A stretch of DNA of 64,000 nt from Cellvibrio sp. 79 (GTDB taxonomy: Bacteria; Pseudomonadota; Gammaproteobacteria; Pseudomonadales; Cellvibrionaceae), in assembly GCA_003056245.1 (NCBI GenBank), contig MVDH01000001.1, positions 62,001-126,000 of the forward strand. Direction: 5' to 3'. Below, in pieces: positions 31,482-41,020 of this stretch. The notes under the pieces were generated by a model, which worked only from the letters and a program-made list of their open reading frames with translations, was not told the origin of the DNA and searched no databases. A program made the position numbers and the translations under genes. Position 1 is the stretch's first letter. Each line of letters opens with the position of its first letter.

Positions 31482-34400
31482 TTATTCAACAAGTTTCAAT
31501 GATCCAAATACACTCGCATCAATATACCCCTGATTGTTTTTATGCCCGGCAGTGTCCACAGATCCCATCATACTTTCACGTTGCTGGCCGCCGTCATTGT
31601 CGATGTAACTCGCAGAGAACCCCAGCTCTTTTCCGGCAGTGAGTGTGAGTGGTGTATTGGCTTGTGAATCGGAATAATCTTCACCGTAAATACGCACGCG
31701 CATTTCCCACACATGTTTATCCCCTAAGCTTACTAACCGCACATCAATGTGGTCATTCAATAATTTCGGCCCCGAGGTGGTGTAATCCACAATGTCACCG
31801 TACGTACTGATGTGATAGGCCCAGGCTGAAGTATTGTATTGGTGCTGGCCACCGTTTTTATTTTCGTCGATAAAAATTTCCACGGTGTCATCTTCCCAGT
31901 AAGCATCCAATGCGGAGCGCGTATTGTCGTAGAGGCGGTCGTCGGTAATATCAAATAACAAGTAGAGATAATTTTCATCCCATAATGCTTTGTATTGACC
32001 GCTGTAATCCTGCGCATCCGGATTGGCTTGCGTGCCCAGCCAGAAAACATTTATCGGTGTCCAGGGCGCCTGGTCCCACACTGAATCGATAGTCCCGTCA
32101 ATTTCCGGTGCAGTTTGCGCTTTGGGCGCGATGTAAGTATTGGGTTCTGCGCTAACAGAGCTTGACGAACTGGATGAGCTGGATGCTGATGATTCCACTG
32201 AGCTTGATGAACTGCTTGCAGTTTCGCCAACAATAATGTCCACCGTTTTTGTAGCGGCAATGTCAGGACCATATGCCGTTAATGTGACGGTGTAAGTGCC
32301 AGGTTCGTTGTAGGTGTGTGAGCTGATGAGGCCGGATGCATTACTGTTATCACCAAAATCCCACGCAAGATAAACCGCGTCGCTCGATTCGCGCCCATCA
32401 ACATAAACGGTATTATCCTGCAGTCGCCAATTAAATTCGGCGACCGTTATTTTGGGTTCGAACACACCGCAAGGCTGATTAAAAGTAGCTTGTTGTGTAT
32501 CCGCCAGTTCGCCATCAAAAACTGTCAGCGTAACCGTGCGTGCTGTAGCAATTGATGTTGCCGATTCGCAATCGTTAAAAACTTGCGTGCTATCACCGGG
32601 CGCATCGCCATTTCCAAAATCCCACAAAAAAGACAGCGAATCGCCATCAACATCGAACGATGTTGAACCGAACGCGACAATGTTCAAACCGCTACGCGCA
32701 ACGCTCAATCGTGCAATCGGCGCGTTATTTTCGGTAGCCGTTTGCGCTTCAATAATTTCACTGGTGCTGGTGGAATTTATCCCATCAGAAACCGTGAGCG
32801 TTACTGTGTAATTGCCGCTGGCCGCATAGGTGTGCCACGCCTCGGGATACTGGATAGTGCTGCCATCACCGAAATCAATCACGTAAGTGAGGTTATCGTT
32901 TTCTGCATCGGTCGACGCGCGACCATTTACGTGAATGGTCGAACCGGTTGCGGTTATCGCCACATTTGCAATAGGCGGTTCATTCGCATTGCTCGATGAA
33001 CTTTGTTCAGATGAAGATACAGAGCTTTCTACCGAACTTGAACTTTCTACCGAGCTGGAGCTTTCCACCGAACTGGATATATCAACACTTGAAGCTACAG
33101 AGCTTGAAGTTTCAACACTCGATTCTTCCGAGCTTGATTCTGAACTCACCACAACCGAACTACTAGATTCAGCTTCCACACTTGATGATGAGCTGGAAGA
33201 ACTTGAAGGCGGAACATCATCCAATGCCGGATACGCATTTTGTACCAGCAACTGGAATGCTTCGGGGAACCAGCGGCCAGCAACCGGAGCATTGGCTAAT
33301 GAACCAGTTGCAACACTGCCATTATTTCCTTCACTGCGCGTGTAAGTCGGATCGCACATGCGATCAAAACCTTTGGCGGGATCGAGCGGATCAAAAGACA
33401 ATTCCAGCGATGAAGCGCCATCCGATTCACCCGGCGGTTTCACCCACACATACGCATCAATGCCCGGTGCCGGAGTTGCTTGCGGACGCTCGCCGATTCC
33501 ACCCGGTTGGTTACACCAGTTACCGCGATGGTGGCGGCGATCTACACGCGACTCATCAATAAAGGTATCCAGCACTGTGCTTGTCGATTGCGCCGTCGGA
33601 CGATTCGCGCCGCCCCAGCCATTGCGTGAAGTATCCACCAGCATACCGATGCTGCTTGGGAAACCCGCAGCAATCATGCGCGTGCGCCAGGCTTGCACAA
33701 AGGCGACTTCACTGAAATACGGATTCCATTCATAGAACTTCGCTTGACGTACTTGCGTGCCGCCACCGCTGCCGGGGAACGCACTGTTCGCGAGTGAATC
33801 CAGGAATGGTTCATGAACCGGTGTGTAGCCCGCGGTGTTGGAAACAAAACCGGCGATAGAACGCACACCGTTAGTTGTTCCTTTAATCGCATCGCCAATT
33901 AATGTAATAGCCTTGCCGAAATTATCGTCCCAACCCAGCCAACCGGAATGACCGATATCGACGTAGCTGTACACATTGGGAATTTGCGACAATTTATTTA
34001 ATGTGTAACGCGTGTTCGCAACATAACCATCGGTTGCATCGGTGGCCAATTGGCAATCGGCATCGCTCAAATTGGTGACGAGGTTGGGCAACGAATCCGG
34101 TTCAATAATCGCAACGATACGCAAATTCCGATATTTACTATCGGAAAAAATTTCCGCGATCACATCAATATATTCAGTGCGATAACGCAGCGTGCCTTCA
34201 GGTCCTTGCGTTAATTCACCGTTTGATGCGAGCGCATGGCAATCGCGATTGGGTAAGTCGTAAACCACAATCTGGATTAAATTAGCGTTTTGTTGCAGCG
34301 CTGCATCAAGGTGATCGCGCAAACCAAAACCATCGGCGGGATCAATCGCACCAATGCGATCCATCCACACCGCCGTATTAAAACGCGCAACTTTATCGCC

Positions 34401-36608
34401 ACCAATTTCTGCACGCGCTTTACCGGACCACACCGGGTCTACGTACCAACGCGCGCCGACGAATGGATTATCCAATGGGTGATCGTCGATTGGGTCGTCG
34501 GAGCTGAAACTGCTCGAACTGCTTGACGATAACGCAATACTGGATGGAGCGGAACTTGACGGTACTGAGCTGATAACAGGTTCCGAGCTTGAAGTTTCCG
34601 AACTGGATTGCGCTGAACTTGATGGCTCGGAACTCACCACAACTGAACTGCTCGATTCCGCTTCCACGCTTGATGATGAGCTGGAAGAACTCGAAGGCGG
34701 AACATCATCCAGTGCCGGATACGCATTTTGCACCAGCAACTGGAATGCTTCGGGGAACCAGCGGCCAGCAACCGGAGCATTGGCTAATGAACCAGTTGCA
34801 ACATTGCCATTATTCCCTTCGCTGCGCGTGTAAGTTGGGTCGCACATGCGATCAAACCCTTTGGCCGGATCGAGTGGATCAAAAGACAATTCCAGCGATG
34901 AAGCGCCATCTGATTCACCCGGCGGTTTCACCCACACATATGCATCAATACCCGGTGCCGGAGTTGCTTGCGGACGCTCGCCGATTCCACCCGGTTGGTT
35001 ACACCAGTTACCGCGATGGTGGCGGCGATCTACGCGCGACTGATCAATAAATGTATCCAGTACTGTGCTTGTCGATTGCGCCGTCGGACGGTTTGCTCCT
35101 CCCCAGCCATTGCGTGAAGTATCCACCAGCATACCGATGCTGCTTGGGAAACCCGCAGCGATCATGCGTGTGCGCCACGCCTGCACAAAGGCGACTTCAC
35201 TGAAATACGGATTCCATTCATAAAATTTCGCTTGACGAACTTGCGTGCCGCCACCGCTACCGGGGAACGCACTGTTCGCGAGTGAATCTAGGAATGGTTC
35301 GTGAACCGGTGTGTAGCCCGCGGTGTTGGAAACAAAACCGGCGATAGAACGCACACCGTTAGTGGTTCCTTTAATCGCATCGCCAATTAATGTAATAGCC
35401 TTGCCGAAATTATCGTCCCAACCCAGCCAACCGGAATGACCGATATCAACGTAGCTGTACACATTGGGAATTTGCGACAATTTATTTAATGTGTAACGCG
35501 TGTTCGCAACATAACCATCGGTTGCATCGGTTGCCAATTGGCAATCGGCATCGCTCAAATTGGTGACGAGGTTTGGCAACGAATCCGGTTCAATAATCGC
35601 AACGATACGCAAATTCCGGTATTTGCTGTCAGAAAAAATTTCCGCAATCACATCAATATATTCGGTGCGATAACGGAGCGTGCCTTCAGGTCCTTGCGTT
35701 AATTCACCATTCGATGCGAGCGCGTGGCAATCGCGATTGGGTAAGTCGTAAACCACAATCTGGATTAAATTAGCGTTCTGTTGCAACGCCGCATCGAGGT
35801 GATCACGCAAACCAAAACCATCGGCGGGGTCAATTGCGCCGATACGATCCATCCACACCGCCGTATTAAAACGCGCAACTTTATCGCCACCAATTTCTGC
35901 ACGTGCTTTACCGGACCACACCGGGTCTACATACCAGCGTGCACCGACGAATGGATTATCCAATGGGTGATCGTCAATTGCGCCGTCGGAGCTGATGCTG
36001 CTGGCAATACTTGATGATGACGGAACTGATGAGCTTGAGGATTCAATTGCAATTGAAGATTCACTATTTGAACTGCTGGAAATAATCAGTTCTGACGAAC
36101 TGCTGCTCGATTCAATTGAACTATTTGATTCAACGGAACTTGATTCAACGGAACTGGAATCTACCGAGCTGCTTGTTTCAATCGAACTTTCAACACTGCT
36201 ACTCTCACTTGATGTTGAATTGCTGCATATAGCGCCGGTCACCGTCGGGCGCTGTGCAGGGCTACCAGCGGTTCCCTTATTTCCTTGCACACCAAATTCA
36301 ATCGTTTGCCCCGGATTAATCCGGTCATTCCAACCGACTCCTGTCGCAGTGTAAGGATTACTCCCGGAAATATTGGCATTCCAACCACCGGTGCGTGTCG
36401 TGCTATCGGTGTAACTCCAGCTTACAGACCAGCCATTAATTGCTGTGCTGGCGTCATTGGTTATGCGCACGGCGGCGACAAAACCGTTACCCCATTCATT
36501 CTGGATAACATAGTCGCAACGGGCTGCATGGCTGGATACAGAATGTAATGCCAGCATTCCTATAAGTGTGGCGGCAGAGCGCCGTAGAAAAATAGATGAG
36601 ATTTTCAT
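31482..36608 (-). CDS. Double-GH6 cellulase: CBM2, GH6, GH6, three PKD-like domains, CBM9
   Basis: 1708-aa secreted enzyme. Order: signal peptide (1-29), CBM2 (31-128), Ser linker with Val-Glu-Ser repeats, GH6-A (212-636), Ser linker (637-706), GH6-B (708-1132), Ser linker, three PKD-like domains (about 1212-1288, 1296-1381, 1384-1462), Ser linker, CBM9 (1488-1708). The two GH6 domains seem to differ at only two residues (FIDQ/FIDE and NNGN/NNGS). Both keep all catalytic acids (D293, D342, D567 and D789, D838, D1063). Two linked catalytic domains on one cellulose anchor may raise local processivity. The ATG has GAGGGAATA directly upstream, exactly as in the paralogue at 29451. CBM2 and CBM9 are also close to those of the paralogue, which suggests gene duplication followed by swapping of the middle modules. 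Confidence 0.93.
33138..34490 (-). repeat. Direct repeat encoding the second GH6 domain
   Basis: About 1353 bp (codons 707-1157) nearly identical to 34626-35978, with an offset of 1488 bp. It covers the whole GH6 domain plus the start of the following serine linker. The differences seen are mostly synonymous. Confidence 0.92.
34626..35978 (-). repeat. Direct repeat encoding the first GH6 domain
   Basis: Partner of 33138-34490 (codons 211-661). The shared ends, [10 protein letters not shown] and [15 protein letters not shown], show that the duplicated unit included a linker segment. This suits unequal crossing-over between serine-linker repeats. Confidence 0.92.
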
Positions 36609-37933: not shown

Positions 37934-38680
37934 ATGAATGCAAAGAAATTATTCTTCTCTGCTTGTTCGGGTCTAATGCTGGCGCTTCCATTAAGTGCAC
38001 AGGCGGTCATCGTTGATGGTACATTTAAAGCAACGGTGATTGGTTCCGAGGCAACGGAAAACCTGTGGGGTGATATTTACGGTGATACGATATCGGGAAC
38101 ATTTTCTTACAAAACAGATACGTTTGACTCAAGCCTTGCCGACAACGAAAGCCACACCAGATATTTCAACGGTCGTAACAATTTTGTTTACCTGACTTTT
38201 AATATCGCCGGGCAAATTTTCGATATTTCCCGTGATTACGCCCAATCACTTGAGCTCGAGACGTCAACCGATGTAGTGGAACTGCGTGATGGCAATTTCG
38301 GAACACCGGGCAATAAACACGATTATTTTCACTTATTGGATATCGTTTATCTTGGTTCGGAAAACACGGGGTATGTGCACACCATGGGCGAAATCCATTT
38401 CTTCGATAACGTTGCGAATGTAATTAATGGCACAGGTCTTGAGCAAGAGTTCAAATGGGTGAGTACTGGTACCAACGACTCTGGCGGTTATGGTACGTTT
38501 CAGTACACCAGAGGCGTGAATGCGTCCTATGCGGCAGCTTATGTTTCTTTGGATATTACAGAAGTCACCGCATCAATACGCAGGGCGGTGCCAGAGCCTG
38601 CGCCTTTATTATTGCTAGGTACTACACTATTGGGATTTGCGGTGCGCTCACGTAAAAATTTCCTGAAATCGAATAAATAA
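37934..38680 (+). CDS. PEP-CTERM sorting-domain protein
   Basis: 248-aa exported protein with an N-terminal signal peptide (LMLALPLSAQA) and a C-terminal PEP-CTERM tail. The tail consists of the motif VPEPAP, a hydrophobic helix (LLLLGTTLLGF) and a basic end (RSRKNFLKSNK). Such tails are cut by exosortase (EpsH/XrtA type) for delivery to the cell surface or matrix. The body of about 190 residues is beta-rich and of unknown function (GTFSYKTDTFDSSLAD). No exosortase or exopolysaccharide gene is in the window. A terminator follows directly. Confidence 0.88.
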   Translation: MNAKKLFFSACSGLMLALPLSAQAVIVDGTFKATVIGSEATENLWGDIYGDTISGTFSYKTDTFDSSLADNESHTRYFNGRNNFVYLTFNIAGQIFDISRDYAQSLELETSTDVVELRDGNFGTPGNKHDYFHLLDIVYLGSENTGYVHTMGEIHFFDNVANVINGTGLEQEFKWVSTGTNDSGGYGTFQYTRGVNASYAAAYVSLDITEVTASIRRAVPEPAPLLLLGTTLLGFAVRSRKNFLKSNK

Positions 38681-40026: not shown

Positions 40027-40338
40027 ATGATTTCAAAAGTAAAATTATCAACTGGATTATTATTGGTTGCATTAACTCAATCTCATGCCTATGCAGACAT
40101 CTCCGTGAACGGCTTGCCACTTAACGGTCTTCAGCTAAATGGCTTGGAACTTAATGGTCTACCACTGAATGGATTGAACATTAATGGTCTGCCACTCAAT
40201 GGATTGAACTATAACGGCGCCAGGCTAAATGGTCTGGACCTGAATGGTATGAAAACGCTTAATAACGTTGAAACAAGCGTGGAAAGCGTTACAGTAAATC
40301 CATTGGTTAGCCTGGCTGACGAATCCTTGGCTAAATAA
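40027..40338 (+). CDS. Exported NGLxL-repeat protein
   Basis: 103-aa protein with a signal peptide (cleavage likely after SHAYA, residue 23). It then has nine to ten five-residue repeats of the form N-G-L-x-L (residues 28-74: [25 protein letters not shown] and so on) and a polar tail of about 28 residues. The repeat differs from the classic A(D/N)LXX pentapeptide but has the same period and may form a small beta-helix or stacked sheet. AAGGAT lies 7 nt before the ATG. The next gene starts 4 nt after the stop, so the two are almost certainly an operon and a functional pair. Function unknown. Confidence 0.8.
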
Positions 40339-40342
40339 TTTT

Positions 40343-41020
40343 ATGATGTTTATAATTTGTCGCCAGCTCTCAAAAGCTGGCGTTTTTTTTCTTGTTTTTA
40401 TTGCTTCAATCGCGGCTGCCACAGAGCATCCGTTGCGAAATGAATCACTGGCGCAAACCGAACAAGGGCGGCAATTGCTTAAATATCTGGTTAGTTGCGC
40501 ATTGCCGGAAACGGATGGTGTATTTGTTGTTGTCGACGGGAAAAGGTATGTCTTCCCCGGAAACCTGGGTTGGGTTCCTGACTGGATTGATCGTCCAATG
40601 ACTGTCGCAGAGAAGCGCAGAATGTCTGCATGTATCGCTGCACATACCAACTTTTTTGGAAAAACAGTGCGGATTTCAGTGCGTAGTGATAATCCGGCGG
40701 CACCGAAAGGTTTTCAAACAACGGCTGCTGAGCGCAAGAATTATTCTTTTTTTGAAGCCGGATTTTTTGGCAACCTTTTTGTATCAAATCCGGTAAGTTA
40801 TGTGTGTTTGGGGAATGATTTTGCAGAACGTGAAAAGCATTTGGAGAATTTGTATCGTGTTTGCTCTCTTGAGCATAAAAATGTAACAGGATTTAGTCGC
40901 TGTAACTTTAAAATTGTCGGGCTTTGTAAGGATAAGCCTTTTGTACAGGATGGCGTTGATTATTCCCGTGAAATTTTAAAGGTGTACTTGCCGGCTCCAT
41001 CACGAAGTAACGCAAAATAA
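40343..41020 (+). CDS. Exported Cys-containing protein paired with the NGL-repeat protein
   Basis: 225-aa protein with an N-terminal signal peptide (AGVFFLVFIASIAAA). The mature part has six cysteines, in SCALPE, SACIAAH, YVCLG, YRVCSL, SRCNF and GLCKD, probably forming disulfides. The central block RRMSACIAAHTNFFGKTVRISVRS followed by FFEAGFFGNLF recalls uncharacterised exported proteins of myxobacteria that also sit beside NGL-repeat proteins; this is from memory and unverified. Translation is coupled to the upstream gene (4-nt gap, no good ribosome site of its own). No enzymatic motif is recognised. Confidence 0.75.
   Translation: MMFIICRQLSKAGVFFLVFIASIAAATEHPLRNESLAQTEQGRQLLKYLVSCALPETDGVFVVVDGKRYVFPGNLGWVPDWIDRPMTVAEKRRMSACIAAHTNFFGKTVRISVRSDNPAAPKGFQTTAAERKNYSFFEAGFFGNLFVSNPVSYVCLGNDFAEREKHLENLYRVCSLEHKNVTGFSRCNFKIVGLCKDKPFVQDGVDYSREILKVYLPAPSRSNAK

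Follow-up and report, generated by a model that had tools for sequence, protein, structure and literature searches.

Two genes that lie 4 nt apart on the same strand (A stop to B ATG) attract attention in the window, the whole stretch of 64,000 nucleotides analysed here. The first, gene A, encodes a signal peptide followed by short repeats and a tail, and the second, gene B, encodes an exported protein with six cysteines in its mature part. Are these two proteins made for each other, and if so, what do they form together? A sequence-only reading had described the two genes in these terms, accurately, and had proposed that they are a two-gene unit with a joint function. Our comparisons bear this proposal out: A and B are a real, conserved and jointly inherited unit, and they very probably work together. 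Judged from the sequences of its relatives, the pair appears to correspond to a myxobacterial surface lipoprotein, here divided over two genes and without a lipid anchor, whose cysteine domain is undescribed. The features of the pair are collected in Table 1.

Table 1. Coordinates of the features of the A/B pair in the window
Feature	Position	Strand	Basis
Gene A, exported pentad-repeat protein, 103 aa	40027..40338 (ATG 40027, stop 40338)	+	ORF/translation; counterparts at 7 other split loci
Signal peptide of A (approximate; putative cleavage after AYA)	40027..40098	+	inferred by eye from translation
Array of A: nine N-G-x-x-x pentads + NGMKT	40108..40257	+	translation; regex match NGLPL...NGLDLN
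Tail of A	40258..40335	+	motif L..[LM][ASC]...L by regex
Gene B, exported six-cysteine protein, 225 aa, undescribed family	40343..41020 (ATG 40343, last stop nucleotide 41020)	+	ORF, homologues, alignments
Terminator-like hairpin, 8 pairs (6 G-C), then T8, within B signal-peptide codons	40361..40382	+
Mature B domain used for structure model	40421..41017	+	pLDDT 83.3, pTM 0.81

The two proteins and their surroundings in the window

The signal of A was judged by eye to be of the Sec type. Its repeats had been read as NGLxL; we counted nine complete N-G-x-x-x pentads with a degenerate tenth behind them, and the NGLxL motif is approximate, one unit being NGARL. On the C-terminal side, the motif L..[LM][ASC]...L is present in seven of the eight A proteins that are encoded separately from B, the eighth having VRALASQSL with V for the first L. 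When VRALASQSL is included, the motif lies at most 4 residues from the C-terminus in 7/8 of these proteins; since it was drawn up only once the sequences had been viewed, we treat it as a lead. No accepted Pfam or NCBIfam family was found for A. A match to Lamprin (PF06403, E 2.6e-4) was dropped because its score fell short of the curated cut-off, PADLOC gave no match and the PHROGs rows were weak (E 0.0032 and 0.07).

The six cysteines of mature B (C52, C97, C155, C174, C187 and C195) are invariant in 42/42 aligned relatives, A53, W81, E138, G143 and R172 are identical in the same 42 rows and N103 is found in 41 of them. The blocks ACIAAHTNFFGK and EAGFFGNLF are both found in B. In the present analysis we defined the B family as an array-linked six-cysteine domain, and window B shows its defining features, namely the order C52-C97-C155-C174-C187-C195 together with W81, E138, G143 and R172 (42/42 rows). 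No match to B was found in Pfam, NCBIfam, PHROGs or PADLOC, in agreement with the earlier remark that it matches no known characterised family; B represents a domain family that these libraries lack. Searched with a B profile, PDB sequences gave no match at E up to 10. We also modelled the mature window domain with seven relatives by AlphaFold2 and obtained a mixed alpha/beta model (scores in Table 1). With this model, Foldseek gave no match at E < 0.001 either in the PDB or among viral models, and the best VIA-align 2 match in the PDB reached Z 2.5 over 63 residues. The absence of a PDB fold match for a predicted model does not prove a new fold.

The pair is preceded by genes for an HxlR-type regulator and a GST-like protein and followed by genes for a nucleotidyltransferase (PF06042) and a glucose/sorbosone-dehydrogenase-like protein. 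A conserved host gene context was rejected, as the downstream nucleotidyltransferase was matched in just 5/21 genomes of the genus, the window's own counted. A compositional island was rejected as well: the GC content of the pair (42.2%) is not striking against window stretches of equal length (mean 45.9, sd 3.8). The hairpin listed in Table 1 could lower B relative to A. It is not kept in the GC-rich split loci, and a general terminator between A and B was rejected, such a hairpin being present in 2/7 pairs with A upstream (the window and locus L057); in Ca. Anammoxibacter, hairpins lie around A. Further upstream in the window, positions 31482-36608 (-) encode an exported protein of 1708 aa having two near-identical cellulase-like catalytic domains, which we take to be GH6-like, with serine-rich linkers between them, and positions 37934-38680 (+) encode an exported protein with the C-terminal tail VPEPAPLLLLGTTLLGFAVRSRK, presumably PEP-CTERM-like.

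Distribution, layout and descent of the B family

Within one myxobacterial order the B family is frequent; outside it, members are few and scattered. Using the single B protein, 1/57 genomes of the window's relatives was matched, which was the window's own; none of the other 20 genomes of its genus has B. In a phylum-wide draw with the same protein, 4/398 genomes were matched, three of them weakly, and the candidates L002-L004 (E 0.002-0.008) were dropped because the profile did not recover them. With the B profile, we observed matches in 1/369 genomes of the window's class (again the window's own), in 1/248 genomes of the family around Epibacterium, in 2/250 of the family around Aquabacterium, in 2/75 of the class around Ca. 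Anammoxibacter, in 9/282 of the phylum around a Myxococcales genome (best ten candidates per genome scored) and in 21/35 of the order around G452. Three B matches of this last search that lack a locus (G1234:C1277, G1261:C157 and G1232:C153) do not enter the comparisons below, and L100 and L101, at 2.8 and 0.2 bits, were not counted as B members. In two roseobacters, Sulfitobacter and Pseudosulfitobacter, the B family is carried on plasmids. Phage records gave no match to B by tblastn, and none of the viral contigs encodes a B relative.

Our list comprised 48 B frames; since two of them (L054) are fragments of a single gene, it amounts to 47 distinct genes. The sequence-only reading had proposed to look at whether the homologues of A and B are neighbours or rarely adjacent. 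We observed that a separate exported pentad-repeat gene lies beside B at 8/8 loci outside what we call the Myxococcota set, that is, the genomes around G451 and G452, reached via L010-L012 (Myxococcota per NCBI). These eight split loci are those of the window, Sulfitobacter, Pseudosulfitobacter, Aquabacterium, Epibacterium, Ca. Anammoxibacter, G1065 and G1288, and the array that belongs to the family definition, in the same chain or in an adjoining gene, is found in the window and at 7/7 of the others. In Sulfitobacter and Pseudosulfitobacter A is directly upstream of B, with a 4-nt overlap or a 10-nt gap, and it is likewise upstream in Aquabacterium, Epibacterium, G1065 and G1288. The coupling of the two genes is not tight everywhere: Ca. 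Anammoxibacter has A on the downstream side of B, at a distance of 167 nt. When the open frames of the eight loci were compared by blastp, all against all, A and B were the only widely shared frames; other shared frames were limited to the roseobacter loci, plus one GST-like similarity between the window and L006.

Two of these loci deserve a remark of their own. A gene annotated as isoprenylcysteine-methyltransferase-like is found 3' of the pair in Sulfitobacter (L005, 5822-6454) and in Epibacterium (L009, 5709-6437), with 63% identity. In G1288 (L057, 1130-1660), the A frame stops just past nine A in a row, and B lacks a recognisable signal peptide of its own; either the assembly slipped here, or A and B are made as one product through a frameshift.

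In the Myxococcota set, the array is within the B polypeptide itself, between the signal and the B domain. The suggestion that similar neighbour pairs exist in myxobacteria was thus right about the two parts, which do occur there, and wrong about their arrangement, the parts being fused and not neighbours. At least three pentads are found in the chain of 19/39 B genes of this set and fewer than three in 20/39; B thus does not require a long array. The fused arrays of L010 and L011 have six or seven NRLAV-type units, and many of the remaining genes have, by eye, one or two pentad-like units at the same site. A lipobox-like signal, called by a crude rule, is present in 29/34 rows of the Myxococcota set versus 1/8 split B proteins (Aquabacterium, ambiguous), suggesting that the lipid anchor was lost in the split form.

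These layouts bear on the suggestion of a toxin-like or bacteriocin-like role for the exported peptide A, with B as its immunity or processing partner. A small exported peptide adjoining an exported cysteine protein would suit such a role, as would the patchy distribution and the plasmid location in the two roseobacters; against it, myxobacteria carry both parts as a single lipoprotein chain, and the split loci have no common transporter or protease neighbour. PADLOC was negative for A and B, and PHROGs, weak for A, was negative for B. As no phage record or viral contig was found either, we rejected a toxin, immunity or defence function, a reading that we regard as very improbable; nothing was found in support of the toxin-like peptide put forward earlier.

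To place the split forms, a B tree of 42 rows covering most of the domain was built, with a midpoint root only. A branch with support 95/90, recovered in 96% of 200 bootstrap trees, separates the eight split forms from all other rows; in a shuffled-label control 7.4 changes were needed on average. The split clade spans Proteobacteria and Planctomycetota: window B clusters with Aquabacterium and G1065, two rows of the Ca. Anammoxibacter class come next, followed by the three roseobacters. This mixing of phyla, together with the absence of B from the other 20 genomes of the genus, fits a horizontal transfer of the two-gene unit. With a midpoint root, we infer that the split form arose from the fused one and not the other way round.

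The asparagine-led array and its relatives

When the six-frame open frames of 57 loci (412,828 residues) were scanned, runs of at least three consecutive N-x-[LIVMFYA]-x-x units occurred in B frames and neighbouring A frames only, which places the array above chance. In its pentads, position 1 is Asn throughout, by construction of the search pattern, position 2 is G in 55/63 split-form pentads and R or K in 82/99 fused-form pentads, position 3 is mainly L or I and position 5 is frequently hydrophobic.

Is the array private to B? A search with a four-pentad pattern matched 17/33 genomes of the order. Sixteen array places without a B match were fetched, those at contig ends (G1248:C345, G1253:C139 and G1235:C461) not being among them: eight have an ADYC domain (PF20032) behind the array, two have other proteins showing a hint of B at most, and six are unrelated frames and were dropped (L104-L107, L111 and L112). 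At L108 (G034), a weak place of the same family, no frame with an array was found. All eight ADYC matches exceed the cut-off of 27 bits, with scores from 98 to 163. As in the B fusions, these proteins of the same myxobacterial order have an N-terminal N-G-[IV]-x-x array directly before a cysteine-containing domain (L094-L099, L102 and L103); three of their arrays pass the Pfam pentapeptide cut-off and two that of GLTT. The ADYC domain is not B: their profile comparison gave a probability of 0.1%, B contains no ADYC domain at the Pfam cut-off, and the idea of a homology, which came from ARTNxFG versus LRADYCG, was abandoned as the comparison was negative twice. ADYC was found only fused to the array, whereas the window pair is split. 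The listings of a literature search showed nothing on the ADYC domain or PF20032, nor on the array strings, myxobacterial asparagine-rich-repeat lipoproteins or the window pair.

The finding of similar arrays before two unrelated domains speaks for a general role in structure or display rather than for a substrate specific to B. It weighs on the proposal that B is an enzyme, or a dedicated chaperone, acting on A, with the pentad Asn as substrate or ligand site and the action in cis when the parts are fused. Several features would suit this proposal: Asn leads each pentad (by construction) and position 2 varies from G to R, K or A, E138 and R172 are invariant and N103 nearly so besides the cysteines, and array and B adjoin or fuse. 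Yet the array is not private to B, fewer than three pentads are present in about half of the genes of the Myxococcota set (the 20/39 given above), and our searches found no enzyme fold or family for B. We consider an enzyme or chaperone acting on A rather unlikely.

The sequence-only reading had also named membership of a known pentapeptide-repeat family with a separate function as a possible outcome. The array and the pentapeptide-repeat proteins (PF00805; Qnr, NP275, 2bm4, designed beta1) both have a five-residue period, and phmmer matched the window array to solved members, best to 4yfo (E 3e-7) and then to Qnr (0.011), NP275 (0.016) and 2bm4 (0.21). A composition-matched shuffle of the window array gave no such match by phmmer. 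A fused NRLAV array gave no convincing match to the family, that of Aquabacterium only one at E 0.4, and PF00805 gave no row for window A or the seven other split A proteins at E up to 10; its gathering score was attained by three ADYC-type arrays only. As quoted in PMC8145042, the pentapeptide consensus is (A/C/S/V/T/L/I)(D/N/S/K/E/I/R)(L/F)(S/T/R/E/Q/K/V/D)(G/D/E/N/R/Q/K), with at least 8 contiguous repeats. We scored the fit to this consensus in the aligned register, with Leu-3 at i-2; at least four of the five positions fit in 25% of the window pentads, 10% of the split-form and 2% of the fused-form pentads. The Asn of the window array sits at i+1, where the consensus as quoted there has no Asn, so that this position never fits. 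The nine contiguous pentads of the window array do not amount to eight consensus repeats as quoted there, and many arrays fall short of the eight repeats by which, according to the same source, the family is recognised. Membership was therefore supported only weakly, by the phmmer likeness set against no Pfam match and a poor consensus fit: on sequence criteria, the window array is pentapeptide-like and not a PF00805 member, and Asn-led arrays are probably best described as a general, weakly pentapeptide-like module. The repeats of Lamprin (PF06403) and GLTT (PF01744) have a weak low-complexity likeness to the array that we take as compositional, the GLTT cut-off being passed by the two ADYC-type arrays; no other feature is in common.

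Could the array be a mere flexible spacer or wall-spanning linker, with split A a little-functional leftover beside a B that acts alone? Array length and composition drift, and divergent members carry single NG units. The pentapeptide-repeat superfamily has a right-handed quadrilateral beta-helix fold. In the model of a natural fusion, the array is a helix with pLDDT of about 35-62 (low confidence), which leaves a solenoid without support and, as no confident structure is seen there, would suit a plain spacer. On the other hand, a separate A has persisted beside B at 8/8 split loci, spread over Proteobacteria and Planctomycetota; it has a signal peptide of its own, and its C-terminal tail is similar between loci. 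A useless relic would decay. We therefore hold it unlikely that A is a leftover.

A working model of the pair

The explanation towards which we lean, with modest confidence, is that A and B correspond to the two parts of one exported protein, which myxobacteria make as a single chain; it would have been split once, and its two parts would partner after export. The ancestral-type chain would be the myxobacterial one, with a lipoprotein signal, then the Asn-led pentad array, then the six-cysteine B domain. In the lineage of the window's pair, this chain would have been split once, giving two coupled genes that each have a Sec signal and in most cases no lipid anchor. The two-gene unit would then have moved between phyla. 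Once exported, A and B would come together beyond the cytoplasm as a non-covalent complex. B may fold as a globular domain with three disulfides, and the array of A may be a short pentapeptide-like solenoid or an extended stalk carrying B, while the A tail L..LA..SLA could be a dock replacing the lost covalent link. The head, for binding or catalysis, would be B, in which W81, E138 and R172 are invariant and N103 nearly so; A would be the spacer and assembly part. That B and ADYC proteins have the array in common is as expected of a general module.

The existence of fused and split forms is a natural argument for joint function. Two orphan hypothetical proteins become one system with a clear prediction, that A binds B, and B itself has a confident model with no significant solved relative. 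Because the similar array ties the pair to the uncharacterised ADYC proteins, one answer would inform unstudied myxobacterial surface proteins. A bolder possibility, which we put forward as doubtful, is that myxobacterial surface lipoproteins generally use Asn-led arrays as a scaffold, for assembly or for presenting ligands, and that two or more unrelated cysteine domains, B and ADYC among them, share it. One such system would have been split into scaffold and head genes and moved between phyla as a self-contained cassette, with the scaffold in excess, and would represent a new class of exported two-part machine.

Two loci show further arrangements of the B domain. One Deltaproteobacteria MAG has two diverged fused array-B genes close together (L010, 3324-4067 (+) and 5739-6731 (-)), and in L044 (1141-3465) an SBBP-type beta-propeller-like region, under the cut-off of NF047494 (E 9.6e-17), lies behind the B domain.
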